Shown here: piece by piece, positions 1,126 through 15,520 of the stretch
How positions within the stretch are numbered: position 1 is the stretch's first letter
How the letters are laid out: each line of letters opens with the position of its first letter
Virus record (IMG/VR): IMGVR_UViG_3300021961_000444
Span: 1 to 29,304 of that record
Strand: one strand, 5' to 3'
DNA: 29,304 nucleotides
Origin: a virus
Notes under the pieces: model-generated
Database searches by the model: none
The model's input: the letters and a program-made list of their open reading frames with translations, nothing else
Told to the model about the DNA's origin: nothing
Translations under genes and position numbers: made by a program

Positions 1126-1369
1126 AAAGATAATCTTGATTTTTACTCAACGGATTAAAAGCATCGTTGATTTCTTCGATAGTTAATTTTCCGTCATCAA
1201 GATATTCGCGGGCTAATCTCTCTGCGACTGAGGCAACTGCCAGCAATCCCGCCATTGATAAAGCAATAATCTCATCGACACCAAAGACAGCACCAGCACC
1301 TAGAGTTCCGAGAGCGCCGACAGTAAAGACCGCAACCATACGGCTCAAGATGTCTCGGACTTTTTTCAT
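1073..1369 (-). CDS. Small membrane protein, holin-like, with acidic C-terminal tail
   Basis: The 98-residue product starts MKKVRDILSRMVAVF. It carries a glycine/alanine-rich hydrophobic region at about residues 12-45. After it comes an EF-hand-like motif (YLDDGKLTIEEINDAF) and a charged, Ser/Lys-rich tail. This layout recurs in small phage membrane proteins often called holins, so that role is possible. Its ATG overlaps the TGA of the metalloprotease gene by four bases (ATGA), making it the last gene of a three-gene minus-strand operon. The 3' end runs 53 bases into the convergent plus-strand gene. Confidence 0.6.
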   Translation of the reverse strand: MKKVRDILSRMVAVFTVGALGTLGAGAVFGVDEIIALSMAGLLAVASVAERLAREYLDDGKLTIEEINDAFNPLSKNQDYLSSPSSDEEGKSKPKRQE

Positions 1370-1887
1370 GCCACAAGTTTAGCGGATGTAATTTCTCGCT
1401 TTCTTGGCACTCGAGGCTTTCCTGATTTAGTCATGACCTTGACCCTCTTGTTATGAAAGGCATTGGCTAATTTATCGGCTTCTTCTTTACCGAGATACCT
1501 TGTCACAAATTGAAGGAGGACATCGGCGAACTCGGCACCATGGGATTCATGACCCCATGTGATGTGATGAGCGATTTCATGAAGAACGGTGAACTTTGTT
1601 CGACCAGCCTTGGTCAATCGAATCAATCGCACCAACTCCCAGTCTCGGTATCTCATCGTGGCATGGCTACCACTTCCAGCCTCCACGATTATCTTGGATG
1701 GATATTTACTAAACTGGAATCGGTACTTCTCAAATAGTGTTCTCGTTCTCTTATGAGATAAAACTTGGTTTACAAATTTCTGAGCCTCTTTGATTGTCAT
1801 GTCGCCCTCAACTTTGTAGAAGCCTCCCTCTCTTTGGGCGTCGTAAAGGCGTTGCCTTTGATTATCCCTCGGCTTGCTTCCAGCCAT
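1366..1887 (-). CDS. SprT-like / HExxH zinc metallopeptidase
   Basis: The 173-residue protein has a clear zinc-peptidase motif, HEIAHH (H103, E104, H107), followed by WGHESHGAEF. H113 or H116 there is the likely third zinc ligand. This is the pattern of SprT-like metallopeptidases in phages and bacteria. The substrate is unknown; the basic C-terminus (KPRVPRKR) would suit nucleic-acid binding. I place the start at 1887 because that ATG overlaps the TAA of the upstream zinc-finger gene (TAATG). A longer in-frame start at 1968 would bury the whole zinc-finger gene. No membrane segment or signal peptide is seen. Confidence 0.75.
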   Translation of the reverse strand: MAGSKPRDNQRQRLYDAQREGGFYKVEGDMTIKEAQKFVNQVLSHKRTRTLFEKYRFQFSKYPSKIIVEAGSGSHATMRYRDWELVRLIRLTKAGRTKFTVLHEIAHHITWGHESHGAEFADVLLQFVTRYLGKEEADKLANAFHNKRVKVMTKSGKPRVPRKREITSAKLVA

Positions 1888-2003
1888 TAGGCGACCTTCC
1901 TCTCTTGATGTTCTTCTCTCAGGTGGCGTCCTAGGCTTTGAAATGCCATGCCACCTCTTAGTTGCCATTCCTTTTTACAAACTGGACAGATGATGATTCT
2001 CAT
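1887..2003 (-). CDS. 38-residue C2H2 zinc-finger microprotein
   Basis: This short gene reads MRIIICPVCKKEWQL and continues to HLREEHQERKVA. C6 and C9 (CPVC) with H27 and H32 give a Cx2C-x17-Hx4H layout, consistent with one zinc finger. GAGGAGG lies five bases upstream of the ATG. A good extended -10 promoter lies just before that. The stop is coupled to the metalloprotease start by a one-base overlap (TAATG). Function is unknown; nucleic-acid binding or partner binding for the following protease are both possible. Confidence 0.7.
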   Translation of the reverse strand: MRIIICPVCKKEWQLRGGMAFQSLGRHLREEHQERKVA

Positions 2004-2128: not shown

Positions 2129-2179
2129 TTGCGTTATTAACCCCAGTTTGGTATACTGGCAATGTTCCGAGAGGGGGAC
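2129..2179 (+). promoter_or_regulatory. Promoter plus 5' hairpin leader (copy 1)
   Basis: TTGCGT (2129-2134), a 17-base spacer and TATACT (2152-2157) preceded by TGG form a promoter with an extended -10. The spacer holds TAACCCCAGT (2138-2147), and CCAGT pairs with ACTGG as an inverted repeat across the -10. Six bases after the -10, GTTCC (2164-2168) pairs with GGGAC (2175-2179) around the loop GAGAGG, which is the Shine-Dalgarno of the gene at 2183. The stem includes one G-U pair. Confidence 0.75.
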
Positions 2180-3128: not shown

Positions 3129-3168
3129 CCCTAGTTATGATATACTCAGATTGTCTTAGAGAGGAGAC
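3126..3168 (+). promoter_or_regulatory. Promoter plus 5' hairpin leader (copy 3)
   Basis: TAACCCTAGT (3126-3135) precedes TGATATACT, with TATACT at 3141-3146. Six bases on, GTCT (3153-3156) pairs with AGAC (3165-3168) around TAGAGAGG. Relative to GTCC/GGAC in copy 2, the pair C-G has become T-A, a compensatory change. The ATG at 3172 follows three bases after the hairpin. Confidence 0.75.
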
Positions 3169-3849: not shown

Positions 3850-3879
3850 TAAACTGGGGTTTAATATGAGAGAGGAAAC
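3850..3879 (+). promoter_or_regulatory. Divergent promoter/leader of the deacetylase-like gene
   Basis: TAAACT (3850-3855) is a plausible -10. The overlapping ACTGGGGTT is the reverse complement of the AACCCCAGT box seen upstream of other genes. GTTT (3859-3862) can pair with AAAC (3876-3879) around a 13-base loop containing GAGAGAGG. Spacing differs from the other copies (three bases instead of six after the -10), so this is a diverged or inverted member at best. Confidence 0.45.
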
Positions 3880-3880
3880 T

Positions 3881-4804
3881 ATGGAACAAGCAATTTTGGT
3901 TCATTCGCCTGAGTATGCGAATTGGGTCTTTGACGCAACGCATCCAACTCAAGGGCGAAGGTTTCTTCATGCCCGTAATCAACTTATGTTGGAAGCGCAA
4001 AGGCGTCGGCTCAATGTCTATGAGATAGAGCCTGATACCTGCTCAACCGATGACCTACACCTCGTTCACAGCATGGACTATGTTTTTGATGTAACTATCC
4101 GCGGTGAGAGCGATGAATGGGTAGGGCAACGCCACGACCTAGGCGACTTAGCCAAGATGTTTGTTAGCGGTACTTTGACTGCCCTTGATGTCTTACTGGA
4201 TAAGAAAACTCTACTCGCTGTAAATTTTGCTGGAGCAAAGCATCACGCGATGCGTGACTATGCCAGCGGATTTTGCGTGTTCAATGATTTCGCTGTCGCC
4301 GCGACTAAAGCCACGAATGAGTATGACCAGCGCGTTGCTATCTTTGATTGCGATGCCCACCATGGTGACGGAACTGAAATGCTTCTCAAATCCAATAAAA
4401 AAGTTCTGACTTATTCAGTTCATGAGTACGGGATTTTTCCAGGCACGGGTTTACTCAGCGATTGGAGAAATCGCGCCTACAACTTCCCGCTTGCTCCAAA
4501 GTCAGGCGATGATGCTTTACTCAGCGCTACCGAGGGTTTCCTAAAAGCGTGTGAAGAGTTTCAACCTACAATGATTTTTGTTGCCTGTGGCGCGGACGGT
4601 TTGACCGATGACCCACTATCCAATCTCATGTACACGCCCGAGGGTTATTTCAACTCAATGCGCCTTATCCGTGAACAGTTCTATAACCTGCCCATCCTCC
4701 TAGGTGGAGCGGGTGGATACCTACCCGATACGGGAACTCCCGAGGTTTGGAAAACCGCCACGCTTGGATTGATGGCTGTTCAAACCGAGGTTGTAAAACC
4801 TTAG
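3881..4804 (+). CDS. Histone deacetylase-fold hydrolase (AcuC/acetylpolyamine amidohydrolase type)
   Basis: This 307-residue protein has the signature residues of zinc-dependent class I/II deacetylases. KHHAM carries the two active-site histidines (H121, H122). GFCVFND follows them. DCDAHHGDGTE supplies metal ligands D158 and H160. CGADGLTDDPLSNL supplies D239. GGAGGY ends in Y280, the catalytic tyrosine position. Length fits single-domain bacterial members. Known substrates include acetyl-lysine, acetylpolyamines and other acyl amides; the substrate here is unknown. I start at 3881 because GAGAGG lies five bases upstream, whereas the ATG at 3866 sits inside that ribosome-binding region. No signal peptide is present, so it acts in the cytoplasm. 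Confidence 0.88.
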   Translation: MEQAILVHSPEYANWVFDATHPTQGRRFLHARNQLMLEAQRRRLNVYEIEPDTCSTDDLHLVHSMDYVFDVTIRGESDEWVGQRHDLGDLAKMFVSGTLTALDVLLDKKTLLAVNFAGAKHHAMRDYASGFCVFNDFAVAATKATNEYDQRVAIFDCDAHHGDGTEMLLKSNKKVLTYSVHEYGIFPGTGLLSDWRNRAYNFPLAPKSGDDALLSATEGFLKACEEFQPTMIFVACGADGLTDDPLSNLMYTPEGYFNSMRLIREQFYNLPILLGGAGGYLPDTGTPEVWKTATLGLMAVQTEVVKP

Positions 4805-4820
4805 AGGTTACGATTAGCAG

Positions 4821-5543
4821 GTGAATCCACCTAAAAAACTGCTGACCCAAAACAGCGAATTAAAGCCTGACGGAATCTTTAATTGGACTCTTCCTGCTTT
4901 CGCTATCAAATTAACTGACGGCTCTAACTTTAATGTTTGTCCTCAAGCGGGTGCGTGTGCCAGTTTTTGTTACGCAAGAAATGGAACTTATTTATTTCGT
5001 AATGTGCGTGGGCGTCATATACAAAATCTTGAATATGTAATGAACTATCCCGAGCAATGGTTTGAGCAGATGTTGGCTGAAGTCCAAAAGCCAAAGATGA
5101 TTGGAAAACACATTCGGATTCATGATGCTGGAGATTTCTTCTCTGAAGATTATCTAAACCTATGGTTGAGGATTGCTCGTTTAACTCCCGAGGTAACTTT
5201 CTATTGCTATACAAAAGAGGTCGCGTTATTTAAGAAAGTGGTTGAACCTGATTGCCCTGCTAACTTTCGTTATCTGTACAGTATGGGCGGAAAGCAAGAC
5301 CATCTAATAAACAAAGAGACTGACCGCCATGCTGAGGTCTTTCCTGATGATGTCGCTATCTTGGATGCTGGATACTCAAGTCAAGATGCTTCAGACCTAT
5401 TGGCTATCACTTTGCCAAGTAACAAAATCGGCATACCTGCCAACAACATCCGCCACTTTAATAAAAAGTTGGCTGGTCGAACTTTCGGCGATGTTCAAGA
5501 TGAGATTGACCAAAAGCGTAGAGTGAAACTTAGCGGGGCATAA
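4821..5543 (+). CDS. GP88-like Cys-rich phage protein
   Basis: The 240-residue product contains NVCPQAGACASFCYARNGTY near residue 40, a CxxxxxCxxxCYA cluster, and then IRIHDAGDFFSEDY and YCYTKEVAL. These match my memory of the phage 'gene product 88' family (mycobacteriophage L5 gp88 type). The cysteine cluster suggests an iron-sulphur or zinc site, superficially like radical-SAM enzymes. The biochemical role is unknown. The start is GTG at 4821; an in-frame stop two codons upstream rules out an earlier start. The stop is coupled to the next gene by TAATG. Confidence 0.65.
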   Translation: MNPPKKLLTQNSELKPDGIFNWTLPAFAIKLTDGSNFNVCPQAGACASFCYARNGTYLFRNVRGRHIQNLEYVMNYPEQWFEQMLAEVQKPKMIGKHIRIHDAGDFFSEDYLNLWLRIARLTPEVTFYCYTKEVALFKKVVEPDCPANFRYLYSMGGKQDHLINKETDRHAEVFPDDVAILDAGYSSQDASDLLAITLPSNKIGIPANNIRHFNKKLAGRTFGDVQDEIDQKRRVKLSGA

Positions 5544-6100
5544 TGACAACAATCCTCGCGGTTCAATATCCTAATAAGGCTGTCATTGGAGCCGACTCTC
5601 AAACTACTGGAGCAACTGGTCGCCTTGCTTCGCATAGTCAGATGACCAAGATTAGTCTGCGAGGAGAGTACATAATCGCAGGGTCGGGTGAATGTGCGCC
5701 TTGCGATATTGCTCAACACATTTGGGTTCCTCCAACTCCGACGGCTAAAGAATCAAAAGACCTTTATCACTTTATGATTTCAAAGGTTGTTCCGTCTTTG
5801 AAAGCCTGTTTCAAGGAGAACGAATATAAGTGGGATGTCGAGGATGAGGAAACGAAGTTTGCTTTCCTGATAATCATTGGCGGTCAAATTTTTGAAGTGG
5901 CAGATGATTTCTCTGTGACCTTAGATGGAAAAGGTTACTACGGAGTAGGGTCAGGGTCGGATTTTGGTATTGGCGCTCTCAATGCTGGAGCGACTTTGAA
6001 AGAGGCTCTCAAGATTGCCTCCGATAATGATGCCTTTACCTCCCCGCCCTTTATCTTTCACACTCAACATCAAAAGGTTGCCAACTCACCTAAGAAGTAG
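5543..6100 (+). CDS. HslV/proteasome-like Ntn hydrolase
   Basis: The protein begins MTTILAVQYPNKAVIGADSQ. After removal of Met, Thr1 is in place as the nucleophile and Asp17 falls exactly where HslV and proteasome beta subunits have it (GADSQ). K35 in MTKI matches the catalytic lysine region. IIAGSGECAPCD matches the buried glycine turn of the fold. Length (185) is close to HslV. The likely activity is threonine peptidase or a related amidohydrolase, possibly as an oligomer. No ATPase partner is visible here. The start overlaps the previous stop (TAATG). Confidence 0.72.
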   Translation: MTTILAVQYPNKAVIGADSQTTGATGRLASHSQMTKISLRGEYIIAGSGECAPCDIAQHIWVPPTPTAKESKDLYHFMISKVVPSLKACFKENEYKWDVEDEETKFAFLIIIGGQIFEVADDFSVTLDGKGYYGVGSGSDFGIGALNAGATLKEALKIASDNDAFTSPPFIFHTQHQKVANSPKK

Positions 6101-6720: not shown

Positions 6721-6918
6721 CTACTCAAATCTAAATTTTTCTCCAGCATCAAATAACTCTATTCCCAAGGCTTTATCAACAACATCAAATTGTTTTGCGT
6801 GATGTCCGCAAAAGTATAAATCTCCATTGATAAAACTCGCCCTAACTCGGGCTTGAACTCCACATCTATCACATCTGTCAAGCGCTGTTAGATTGGCTCT
6901 TGAAATTGTGGCTATCAT
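6721..6918 (-). CDS. DUF7455-like zinc-binding protein
   Basis: The 65-residue product has LTALDRCDRCGVQARVRAS and then LYFCGHHAKQF. C16, C19, C37 and H39/H40 give a CxxC...CxHH zinc site. This is the pattern of small DUF7455 proteins common in Actinobacteria and their phages, which is part of the case for an actinobacterial host. The function is unknown. The start overlaps the stop of the gene before it (ATGA), so it is the last gene of the 7650-6721 operon. Confidence 0.75.
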   Translation of the reverse strand: MIATISRANLTALDRCDRCGVQARVRASFINGDLYFCGHHAKQFDVVDKALGIELFDAGEKFRFE

Positions 6919-7682: not shown

Positions 7683-7725
7683 TAACCCCCGTTGTGTTAT
7701 ACTAGGGGTGTCCTGAGAGGAGGAC
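7683..7725 (+). promoter_or_regulatory. Promoter plus 5' hairpin leader (copy 4)
   Basis: TAACCCCCGT (7683-7692) precedes TGTTATACT, with TATACT at 7698-7703 as an extended -10. Six bases on, GTCCT (7710-7714) pairs with AGGAC (7721-7725) around exactly GAGAGG. The start codon is at 7731. Here the outer repeat is CCCC...GGGG rather than CCAGT...ACTGG. Confidence 0.75.
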
Positions 7726-8635: not shown

Positions 8636-8680
8636 TAACCCCAGTTGTGATATACTGGACTTGTTCTTAGAGAGGAGAAC
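8636..8680 (+). promoter_or_regulatory. Promoter plus 5' hairpin leader (copy 6)
   Basis: TAACCCCAGT (8636-8645) precedes TGATATACT, with TATACT at 8651-8656. CCAGT and ACTGG form the inverted repeat. Six bases later GTTCT (8663-8667) pairs with AGAAC (8676-8680) around TAGAGAGG. Compared with copy 2, the stem has changed on both sides while pairing is kept. The ATG is at 8683. Confidence 0.78.
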
Positions 8681-12631: not shown

Positions 12632-13819
12632 TTATTCTACCTCGGTTGTACACGCCTCAATAGGAATAAATAATAACTCAGCAATATCTTTCCAGCCATT
12701 TATTGTGTTAGCCCATTCATTTAAGTCCTCAGTATGAACTCTCATTTGATGCTCACCAACTCGCATCGTTGTACGACCCACAGGGATATGCCCAGGCTTG
12801 GTTTTCCCACCTCCCAAGATTTCGGCTACCTCTTCAGCGCTAAAGCCTGTTCCTTTCAAGCCCGTGCTGGTTAAGAGTTTACTTAACTCCTGTGGGTCAT
12901 AAGTTGCCAAGTCCGAGGTTCGATTGTCCACGATAAGGATTTTGATTTCCTCAATATCATCGACATCAATCCAATGGACGGCAATCTTCTCCCAACCTAA
13001 TTGAACTGCTCCCTGATAAGTATGATTACCCGAGAGAATGTGTTTAGTGTTTTTATTGACCACGATAGGTCGGTACTGACCCATTAACTCAAGGGATTGA
13101 ATGATTGACCCTATATCGCCCTCACGCGGGTTGAGAGGGTGAACCTTTATCTCATTGATGCCTACGCTCTCTACATCATCGGGTGAACTCGTACTCCGCT
13201 CAGGCTTTGAATCAGGCTCGACGGGCTTACGCTCAGGAAAACCTAGACGCTCCTTGATTGCTTTGATTGCTTTCTGCTTTGTCGGTGCCTCGGCATATAG
13301 TTGCTCTTTCCAAGCCTTGTAAGCCTCGAGTTCGACTGTAAATCTCCAAGCGCTTATCTTTACTTCAGGGTCGCTAGGTAAAGGCTTAGAATCGCTTATG
13401 TTGTCTTTCTCTTTCCCATTCATCAACTTATCCAAAGTATCAACCTCAGATTTAGTGAAGCCTGTACCGTCGAGTTCAGGTAGAGCGTTAAGGAGAGATT
13501 TGAGAAGTGGCTCGTTGTATCCAGCCAAGTCGGTCAAGCGATTATCAGCCAAGACAATCTTGCGAGCGCTCTCCTCATCTACATCCACATAGGTAACCTT
13601 GATTTTCTTCCAGCCAAGTTTCTTCGCCGCTTTGTAAGTATGGTTACCAGCCAAGATAAAGTTTGAACCGTACTGAACCACAATCGGTCTGTACTGACCA
13701 TGGGCTTTAAGTGATTGAGCAATCGCTTCAATATCACCACGGCGAGGGTTTGTTGGATATGCCTCGAGCGATGAGATAGCAACTGAGGCAACTTGTCCAA
13801 CCTTTATCTTCGCTTTCAT
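12632..13819 (-). CDS. Tandem ParB/Srx-fold protein
   Basis: The 395-residue protein holds two copies of one domain. Copy 1 (about 10-130) has SSLEAYPTNPRRGDIEA, GQYRPIVV, and LAGNHTYKAAKKLGW. Copy 2 (about 218-335) has IKVHPLNPREGDIGSI, GQYRPIVV and LSGNHTYQGAVQLGW, each followed by an ADNR/VDNR motif. The GNHT motif replaces the GERR-type motif of chromosomal ParB. Related phage proteins are annotated as ParB-like nucleases, and some members of the fold act as kinases. The ATG overlaps the stop of the CmoA-like gene (ATGA). Its placement between DNA-modification genes and terminase suggests work on the modified DNA, which is inference. Confidence 0.78.
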   Translation of the reverse strand: MKAKIKVGQVASVAISSLEAYPTNPRRGDIEAIAQSLKAHGQYRPIVVQYGSNFILAGNHTYKAAKKLGWKKIKVTYVDVDEESARKIVLADNRLTDLAGYNEPLLKSLLNALPELDGTGFTKSEVDTLDKLMNGKEKDNISDSKPLPSDPEVKISAWRFTVELEAYKAWKEQLYAEAPTKQKAIKAIKERLGFPERKPVEPDSKPERSTSSPDDVESVGINEIKVHPLNPREGDIGSIIQSLELMGQYRPIVVNKNTKHILSGNHTYQGAVQLGWEKIAVHWIDVDDIEEIKILIVDNRTSDLATYDPQELSKLLTSTGLKGTGFSAEEVAEILGGGKTKPGHIPVGRTTMRVGEHQMRVHTEDLNEWANTINGWKDIAELLFIPIEACTTEVE

Positions 13820-14463
13820 TTAATGTATATCCAAGCCTCGAAATTGAAGAATTTCCAAAACATTGTACCTGCTGTAAACCCTGCGTTCTCTGCCAATATC
13901 TGATTTCGCATTGATGAGTTCACCTTCATCATGCTTCGAAGGTCGCGCTCTTTGTCTAATATCTGTTCCGCGCTAAAGGCTTTGCGTTTGAAGTCATAGT
14001 GAGCGCCGTTGATTACCTGCTCAAGTTCGCCCGATTCTTCTCGTACCTTCTCTGCCCATATAAAAGCCCCACCCTCAACTAGAGAGTCATAGATAATGCT
14101 TAGGATTTTTGGTCTGTCCTCGTAAGGAATGAACTGAAGCGTGAAGATGGAAAGAATCAAACTGGACTTACCAAAGCCGTTGAAAGCGCGTAGGTCTTTT
14201 CGGACATAGAGAGTTTCGTCATGGGACTCAGGCAATAGATTGTCGGCTATATCAATTCCAACTTTCTTACCACGGTGAGGAAGTCTCTCCAGTAGTTTTC
14301 CAGTCGAGCATCCAAGGTCAATCACCTGCGTATCTTCAGTCATGAAGTATGTACTCAAGTCACAAATTGCTTCAGTCAGCGTGTGATAGTTTGGAATTGA
14401 TTGCGCTATATGCTCATCAAAGTTAGTTATCGTGTCGAATGAGAATGGCTCAGTAGAACTCAT
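13816..14463 (-). CDS. cmoA: CmoA-like carboxy-S-adenosylmethionine synthase
   Basis: The predicted 215-residue protein aligns along its length with E. coli CmoA as I remember it: PFSFD for the WTFDE region, SIPNY (Y26), DLGCSTG for DLGCSLG (D49-G55), FTLQF identical (107-111), YDSLVEGGA for YQGLNPGGA, DFKR identical (157-160), and FFNF for CFNF near the end. CmoA converts SAM and prephenate to carboxy-SAM. The Arg that holds the carboxylate (R199 in E. coli) lies in QKR; here the sequence is DKER, with Arg one position later (R173), and N132 appears replaced, so activity needs proof. I chose the ATG at 14463, behind AGAAGG; starts at 14553 or 14577 would overlap the methyltransferase heavily. 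Confidence 0.78.
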   Translation of the reverse strand: MSSTEPFSFDTITNFDEHIAQSIPNYHTLTEAICDLSTYFMTEDTQVIDLGCSTGKLLERLPHRGKKVGIDIADNLLPESHDETLYVRKDLRAFNGFGKSSLILSIFTLQFIPYEDRPKILSIIYDSLVEGGAFIWAEKVREESGELEQVINGAHYDFKRKAFSAEQILDKERDLRSMMKVNSSMRNQILAENAGFTAGTMFWKFFNFEAWIYIK

Positions 14464-15520
14464 GAAGCCTTCTACCAATCGCTTCCACGACTGGGATAGT
14501 GATTGTCCGTCCGCACCGCTCGTATCTTTCGGAATCTGAAACTCGTCGTCCATCGTGATAAAACTCCGTCCATCCATCGGGTAATCCTTGAAGGCGCTCG
14601 CACTCCAAGGGAGTTAGTTTTCTAATCGCAAAGCCGTCCTCATTCCCGATTTGAACTCCGTGACGGTCTTGCGCTGTTATCGTGTACATCGGGTCGCCAT
14701 CATCTTTAATGAGTCGCCCGTTTGGTGATTTGTTTACTCTTGCCACATCAAGAACTGGTCTGACAAATGGAACATTATTGCCACCTGTTCCCATGTGAGC
14801 CAATAGTGTTGGAGCAACATTCTCAAAAGTTCTAAAAGAATTATCTCTGCGAATAAACTGCTCAACTACATATTGTCGGGAGTTTCCTCCTTTGTAGTAG
14901 TGAGCGTCGAGGGTCGGAGAAATGTTGGAGAAAAGCCCCTGCCTTCCTTCTCGTTCTTGCGAGTTCGCGCCATCATTGCTTCGACCTGTTGCTCCGATAG
15001 GAAATACTTTGGGTCGGGGTTTTCCTCTAAGATGTCCGATAAGGAATATCCTTTCTCGGTGTTGCGGGACTCCGAAATTTTGGCTGTCAAGCAATTCCCA
15101 TTGACAGTCATACCCCAAGCCATCCAAGACTTCGAGGATGATTTCGAAGGTTCTTCCTCCGTCATGGTTGAGGAGTCCTTTGACATTCTCAAAGAGGAGA
15201 TATGGTATTGATTTTTCGTGAGCGAGTCTAAACATTTCAAAAGCGAGTGTCCCTCGGGTGTCATCCAAAGAGAATCCAGTTCGCTTACCTGCGACTGAAA
15301 AAGTCGCACAAGGGAATCCTCCAACGAGGAGGTCGGCATCAGGAAGGTCTCCAGCGGAAACATTTCTAATATCTCGTCCGTCAGGTTGTTCTCCGAAGTT
15401 TCGGGCATAAATACTCCTAGGTCTCTCTAACCATTCGTTAGCCCACACGCACTCATGACCTGTTCTTTCAAGTCCAAGTCGGAAGGCTCCGATGCCAGCA
15501 AAAAGTTCTATGAACTTCAT
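14450..15520 (-). CDS. C5-cytosine DNA methyltransferase with altered motif X (possible carboxymethyltransferase)
   Basis: All core motifs of C5-cytosine methyltransferases are present: I, ELFAGIGAFRLGLE (5-18); IV, GGFPCATFSVAG with nucleophile C71; VI, ENV (111-113); VIII, QHRER (153-157); IX, RKLTPLECERLQGLP. The target-recognition region (about 170-298) has SPTLDAHYYKGG and APTLLAHMGTGG segments. Motif X reads RYERCGRTITIPVVEAIGRR: the usual Gly-Asn is Gly-Arg (R338, codon at 14507-14509). Motif IV has PCA instead of PCQ. The gene overlaps the CmoA-like gene by 14 bases. I infer transfer of a carboxymethyl group from Cx-SAM; plain methylation is the alternative. The target sequence cannot be read from here. 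Confidence 0.9.
   Translation of the reverse strand: MKFIELFAGIGAFRLGLERTGHECVWANEWLERPRSIYARNFGEQPDGRDIRNVSAGDLPDADLLVGGFPCATFSVAGKRTGFSLDDTRGTLAFEMFRLAHEKSIPYLLFENVKGLLNHDGGRTFEIILEVLDGLGYDCQWELLDSQNFGVPQHRERIFLIGHLRGKPRPKVFPIGATGRSNDGANSQEREGRQGLFSNISPTLDAHYYKGGNSRQYVVEQFIRRDNSFRTFENVAPTLLAHMGTGGNNVPFVRPVLDVARVNKSPNGRLIKDDGDPMYTITAQDRHGVQIGNEDGFAIRKLTPLECERLQGLPDGWTEFYHDGRRVSDSERYERCGRTITIPVVEAIGRRLHEFY

Follow-up and report, generated by a model that had tools for sequence, protein, structure and literature searches.

Why would a tailed phage carry an enzyme of the histone deacetylase (HDAC) fold, and on what would this enzyme act? A gene of this kind lies in a 29,304-base linear IMG/VR virus record, the whole of which was analysed and is hereafter called the window (Table 1). 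Its likely start was placed at 3881 rather than at an alternative upstream ATG at 3866, which would yield a 312-aa product, because a Shine-Dalgarno-like sequence is located between both ATGs and the matches of relatives begin at residue 1 of the 307-aa form. In the 307-aa protein, the sole Pfam domain is Hist_deacetyl (PF00850; E 4e-56; 190.9 bits, the cut-off being 27.9), and PHROGs, NCBIfam and PADLOC contain no model for this protein. All six metal-binding and catalytic residues are invariant in the 78 full-length window-lineage sequences, which were obtained by dropping 3 truncated sequences from 81. The initial annotation had read an HDAC-fold enzyme with every metal-binding and catalytic residue from this frame and had staked the reading on conservation of the metal site among relatives; the domain score and the residues bear it out on both counts. 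With a Pfam domain over the cut-off, the His-His dyad, the Asp/His/Asp ligands, the Tyr and the arginase-deacetylase fold, the protein is a Zn-dependent classical deacylase. Moreover, because the HDAC fold, the complete catalytic site and its conservation in relatives occur together, the gene product is very probably an active enzyme, as had been anticipated, and is predicted to perform metal-dependent amide hydrolysis.

Table 1. Features at the deacylase locus of the window
Feature	Position	Strand	Remarks
Conserved promoter-like element TAAACTGGGGTTTAATA	3850..3866	+	putative -10 TAAACT
Shine-Dalgarno-like GAGAGGA	3870-3876	+	4 nt before the ATG at 3881; from sequence
Zn-dependent classical deacylase (HDAC fold), GAKHH clade	3881..4804	+	307 aa; foot-pocket lysine K120; catalytic H121/H122; metal ligands D158/H160/D239; Y280
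GP88 family protein (PF17338)	4821..5543	+	separates the deacylase from the HslV-like gene, as at 18 of the 82 loci compared (a minority)
HslV/proteasome-like Ntn hydrolase (phrog_1040), begins MTT	5543..6100	+	downstream neighbour of the deacylase

The AlphaFold2 model of the window protein, built from an input of 49 sequences, has a mean pLDDT of 96.0 and a pTM of 0.94, and superposes on solved relatives with Z scores of 38-39 over 289-298 residues. The top structural match is the 'lysine deacylase' 5zmp (Z 39.2, rmsd 1.9 over 289 residues), but bacterial HDAH, HDAC2 (Z 38.8) and HDAC6 are tied with it within 1 Z unit, so that structure settles the fold but does not tell the class. Among the viral structures of the library searched, giant-virus HDACs alone match at E below 1e-14. 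The human class I enzymes HDAC1, HDAC2 and HDAC8 are the best Foldseek matches (HDAC8 with a TM of 0.85 by query length, E 2e-23), but their identity to the window protein is 26-28%, and HDAC1 has Leu at the position of K120. In the same alignment, T23 of the L1 loop aligns with a Met of HDAC1, and an Arg, R27, is conserved. We take the Leu and Met of HDAC1 at these two positions to line its internal cavity.

A profile scan (11 rows, one genome per species) returned 198 relatives. The best 19 of them share 44-52% identity with the window protein; 18 of these bear the name Actinomycetota, actinobacterium or that of a member genus or family ('Candidatus Planktophila' included), one is an 'uncultured bacterium', and many are MAGs from lakes or ponds, as judged by their titles. 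The other sequences among the best 80 of the 198 show 28-39% identity. A second phage set, related to Microbacterium phage Magritte and found on contigs of up to 136 kb, gave 43 and 62 loci in two overlapping scans. Phylogenetic analysis of 80 rows recovered the window lineage (100/99), the Magritte-like lineage including Magritte (100/97) and a group of actinobacterial and window-type sequences (100/99), and everything combined formed one clade on a long branch (100/98), whose join to the AcuC-like rows is weak (47/23 at the midpoint). The window-type phages group with the host sequences, and the tree gives neither their exact place nor a direction of transfer; the search for a donor proposed in the initial annotation thereby led to the Actinomycetota MAGs as nearest cellular relatives. 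As far as the sequences tell, these proteins constitute a well-supported and hitherto undescribed clade, which unites two phage lineages with Actinomycetota, many of them from lakes.

Lys directly precedes the His-His pair at 207 of the 208 clade loci (81 window-type, 95 of 96 Magritte-like, 30 bacterial and Magritte itself), which are loci and not independent events, the 96 Magritte-like ones holding 55 distinct deacylases. None of the 66 readable outgroup sequences has Lys at this position, where Leu, Met, Tyr, Gly or Thr is found instead; 18 further outgroup sequences were unreadable by the motif pattern. The window protein carries the motifs FAGAKHH, AGGY and FPGTG, and, where it could be read, the residue before GGY is either A or V in the phage clades, with a single S in hosts. 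Such motifs, A/V before GGY together with FPGTG, appear AcuC-like and not polyamine-type. Like AcuC and cluster 2 as delimited in the passages of PMC11532494 on these motifs, the window protein has a class I-like core, the FPGTG loop, a small residue before GGY, matching (G/A)GGY, and a complete catalytic set. It differs in having Lys where those enzymes have Leu, Met or Tyr before His-His, and GA where they have GG in that loop (FAGAKHH against xGGLHH), in forming a separate clade, and in having HslV-like or dual-specificity phosphatase (DSP) genes as phage neighbours and no acu operon. The GGGxHH motif of the class IV or cluster 5 fatty deacylases is likewise replaced here by xGAKHH, and neither RPPxHH nor EGGY of the acetylpolyamine amidohydrolases (cluster 4) is present.

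Among 50,697 named phage records, eight have a match to the deacylase: Magritte (gp204, 37% identity), Rhodococcus phage E3 (two records), three Staphylococcus records, one Pseudomonas record and one faecal record. The three Staphylococcus matches may be bacterial DNA, several of the eight are unannotated, and two inspected records carry an 'unverified' mark. Gp202 of Rhodococcus phage E3, a 'putative histone deacetylase', also represents an HDAC domain in an actinophage, but it reads SSGLHH, shares 27% identity over the alignment and falls outside the GAKHH clade on a long branch. IMG/VR contains 98 stretches that code for relatives of the window protein, and the best 80 of these show 60-96% identity. 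The window's terminase retrieved 80 loci, and coordinates were taken for 39 of them, the remainder being too short by their listed lengths; because the deacylase is present in all 24 window-type terminase contigs that extend at least 7.5 kb past the terminase on the right side, it is a core gene of the window lineage. Thus, the initial annotation's description of the gene as unusual cargo holds for named phages but fails for this lineage. A literature search, covering open-licence papers, found no paper on Zn-dependent HDACs or deacylases in tailed phages. Phages reportedly add modifications to host proteins, with Rac and AcrVA5 as acetyltransferases of this kind. WhiB, a mark of actinophages in passages of the freshwater phage literature (PMC10202952, PMC6802176), was found in 19 of the 28 longer window-lineage records. 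The window-type phages are actinophages of freshwater bacteria, a common virus group.

At 75 of 81 window-type loci, an HslV-like gene lies downstream of the deacylase and on its strand, with a median gap of 17 nt. In two of the six exceptions the contig ends 73 and 382 nt further on, and four (L077-L079, L081) have no HslV despite ample sequence. Since three HslV types less than 50% alike occupy this place (at 58, 15 and 2 loci, the last being the type of the Magritte-like lineage), HslV alleles seem to have been exchanged while the position was kept. HslV-like genes are also common in other phages: when the HslV of the sister, Magritte-like lineage was used as the query, 50 of 67 loci had no deacylase within about 4 kb, which counts against a tight link between the two genes, and the first cultivated Planktophila phages (OX376640/41) have HslV and no deacylase match. 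HslV-like genes without a nearby deacylase are widespread in contigs of up to about 100 kb (L429-L485), where a gene often located near them is presumably Hsp20-like. A role of the HslV-like gene as a prohead protease is possible but was not adopted, because the window copy lies on the strand opposite to the terminase and tail genes. In LanE43-AprE7, the HslV-like gene is located behind a frame that we read as portal-like.

In the Magritte-like lineage, 48 of the 55 distinct deacylases have at least 1.5 kb of sequence upstream. Among these 48 loci, DSP occurs in 45 (directly upstream of the deacylase in 42, farther down in 3) and HslV in 41, usually upstream of the deacylase, and three loci have neither. 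The CX5R phosphatase signature is intact in all 87 DSP frames. No DSP was found in 19 window-lineage records, Magritte or E3. The initial annotation mentioned neither of these neighbours, the hydrolase of the window lineage and the phosphatase of the sister lineage and hosts, nor the subfamily lysine. DSP relatives are present in 22 named phage records (Mycobacterium, Gordonia, Rhodococcus), and in the three inspected, NiceHouse, Estes and PhinkBoden, there is no annotated deacylase nearby. In Mycobacterium phage Estes the DSP is one gene from an RtcB ligase, and in Rhodococcus phage NiceHouse it is near a tRNA nucleotidyltransferase (L407, L406); an RNA-end role is possible for this phosphatase family. 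A GNAT acetyltransferase (PF00583) was sought as a partner, and none looked paired beside the deacylase: PF00583 matches occur in 15 of 29 phage records, 7 over the cut-off and none in the window, and are mostly partial and inside long frames (372-2904 aa except two).

Other genes of the window were noted on their own account. The GP88 family protein contains a cysteine cluster, CPQAGACASFCYA, which in our view presumably recalls radical-SAM-like phage proteins. The protein of 1366-1968 (-) contains HEIAHH, a motif resembling those of metalloproteases, and has a SprT-like match below the threshold; it is encoded divergently upstream in many relatives. Genes for a SAM methyltransferase and a C5-cytosine DNA methylase at 13816-14577 and 14450-15520 (-) overlap by 128 bases and are followed by a ParB-like gene. 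A 65-aa protein with CDRC...FCGHH is encoded at 6721-6918 (-), and small CDSC...CGHH or CMHH proteins that resemble it are located near deacylase and HslV genes in other actinophages.

The TAWACTRGGGTTTAWWA element, exact at the position given in Table 1, occurs within 60 nt upstream of the deacylase at 44 of 77 window-type loci, which amounts to 37 of 61 distinct upstream sequences; shuffling gave a mean of 0.2 and at most 2. In many relatives without it, the deacylase is directly behind another frame. A generic sigma-70 scan upstream of the deacylase was not above chance (14 found versus 14.6 expected). The gene had been credited with its own promoter and, on that ground, with early expression; what stands of this is a putative, conserved element, with the sigma-70 scan lending nothing, and a promoter before the deacylase is plausible. 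The element speaks for the promoter but not for the early timing. A near copy of the element with 2 mismatches, at 2134-2150 (-), faces the divergent block 1073-1968. A further repeat, CYAGTTRTGATATACT, is located upstream of small plus-strand genes (2643-2658, 3131-3146, 8641-8656 and 7688-7703; 4 matches at up to 3 mismatches versus 0.48 expected), and is perhaps a phage promoter class other than that of the deacylase.

The host side comprises 30 bacterial loci (19 and 11 from two scans). DSP is present at 12 of them, vWA at 13 (one type at 11, another at 2), a TY-Chap3-like gene at 3 and a NERD helicase at 6; vWA and/or DSP stand beside the deacylase at 19 loci, neither at 11, and at one locus (L101) the deacylase and DSP are fused in one frame. 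None of the vWA, DSP, TY-Chap and NERD genes of hosts was found in the phage loci compared first. Phage-born contamination was rejected as the source of the host copies: the 30 loci contain no HslV-like gene, and one (L097) is in a 1.1-Mb contig. The copies are rare, being found in 12 of 296 genomes of the order of the Planktophila MAG at E below 1e-100, and in 17 of 166 and 6 of 394 genomes in two further, overlapping samples. Of the 166 genomes, 11 have both deacylase and DSP, versus 1.6 expected (P 1e-9, relatedness ignored). The host cassette resembles the conflict systems centred on ADP-ribosylglycohydrolase (ARG) in PMC9503650 (section 3.8) in its phosphatase of the rhodanese/DSP kind, vWA, TY-Chap3 and sometimes a helicase/nuclease, here in part of the loci only, but it has a deacylase where those have the glycohydrolase; HDAC enzymes are unmentioned in the passages of PMC9503650 found. 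ARG was rejected as the partner of the host DSP (6 genomes overlapping versus 3.1 expected, P 0.06), and no ADP-ribosylglycohydrolase was found among the host-locus neighbours scanned with Pfam. Because DSP and ARG share no contig in the 166 genomes, the host cassette was not filed as an ARG-centric conflict system.

According to the passages of PMC11532494 on the active site, the foot pocket, which accepts the acyl group, is lined by the loop preceding His-His and by the residue in front of GGY; in the V. cholerae enzyme, Tyr135, directly before the His-His pair, lines the fatty acid. GGLHH is given there as the motif of AcuC-type enzymes and RPPxHH as that of strict deacetylases. Sixteen columns separate the GAKHH clade from the AcuC-like rows, and four of them (119, 120, 275 and 277) are within the two foot-pocket loops. 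Because Lys and Arg beside the metal could hold a carboxylate, we guess that succinyl, malonyl or glutaryl groups are removed; the basic pocket made by K120 suggests, at the level of sequence, a preference for carboxylated acyl groups. Alternatively, Lys, with its long side chain, may do no more than occupy the foot pocket and restrict the enzyme to acetyl.

Taken as a whole, we give an even chance to the explanation that the window encodes an active metal-dependent classical (HDAC/AcuC) deacylase which, probably, strips acyl groups from protein lysines in infected freshwater actinobacteria, within a modification-erasing set. Enzymes with AcuC-like motifs deacylate protein lysines (PMC11532494), and we infer that acyl-lysine in proteins is the likeliest substrate. 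The enzyme would hydrolyse the acyl amide in a metal-dependent manner and would deacylate host or phage proteins during infection, working alongside the DSP in the sister lineage and on host chromosomes, and alongside the proteasome-like hydrolase in phages. Host or phage proteins would thereby be reset or protected, and a host modification that hinders infection might be undone; the basic foot pocket may favour succinyl, malonyl or glutaryl groups.

An enzyme that deacylates a small molecule, an acetylpolyamine or another acyl amide, and so feeds phage metabolism is unlikely. Amidohydrolases of polyamines and xenobiotics do share the fold (PMC11532494), and active acetylpolyamine amidohydrolases are known from giant viruses (PMC9992855), being virus-encoded HDAC-fold enzymes like the present one; the window phage, however, is a tailed phage outside Imitervirales and has neither RPPxHH nor EGGY. 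By the rule in the motif passages of PMC11532494, polyamine enzymes have both, whereas the clade has K before HH and A/V (one S) before GGY, and since both motifs are missing, the acetylpolyamines named among the possible targets in the initial annotation become less likely. No polyamine gene was found among the window proteins scanned, and the neighbours act on proteins or phosphoesters.

We assign a similarly low probability to a dedicated anti-defence enzyme that strips acyl groups added by a host defence, for example by a GNAT toxin on aminoacyl-tRNA. The defence-like NERD/UvrD helicases near 6 of the 30 host copies, the vWA, DSP and TY-Chap3 genes, which belong to predicted conflict systems according to section 3.8 of PMC9503650, and the RtcB ligase or tRNA nucleotidyltransferase close to DSP relatives in isolated phages agree with such a role; against it, the deacylase, vWA and DSP are not covered by any PADLOC model, a host modifier was not found, and the window has no tRNA. 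A metabolic gene that reactivates a host acyl-CoA synthetase, as AcuC does AcsA (PMC11532494), is quite improbable, even though the nearest motifs are AcuC-like: the clade is separate from the AcuC-like sequences (100/98), 5 of 15 host genomes have a second, stronger-scoring HDAC elsewhere, and the rarity of the host copies (12 of 296 and 17 of 166 genomes) is unlike a housekeeping regulator.

Beyond the protein-lysine deacylase that we prefer, a more specific proposal is rather unlikely: that actinophages and freshwater actinobacteria share an undescribed 'eraser' module of a GAKHH Zn deacylase and a DSP phosphatase, in phages often with the proteasome-like hydrolase and in hosts with vWA/TY-Chap chaperones, which would contest protein modification in infection, with removal of succinyl, malonyl and glutaryl groups owed to K120 together with a foot pocket that is polar in its other parts. 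If true, this would be Zn-dependent removal of negatively charged acyl groups, whereas the bacterial classical deacylases tested in PMC11532494 showed no succinyl or glutaryl removal in the passages that report it. A core deacylase in common freshwater actinophages, with a host counterpart in a phosphatase/vWA cassette, would offer a handle on acylation in the conflict between phage and host, the hosts concerned being very abundant lake bacteria, and the invariant foot-pocket lysine makes the choice of acyl chain testable through one mutation.
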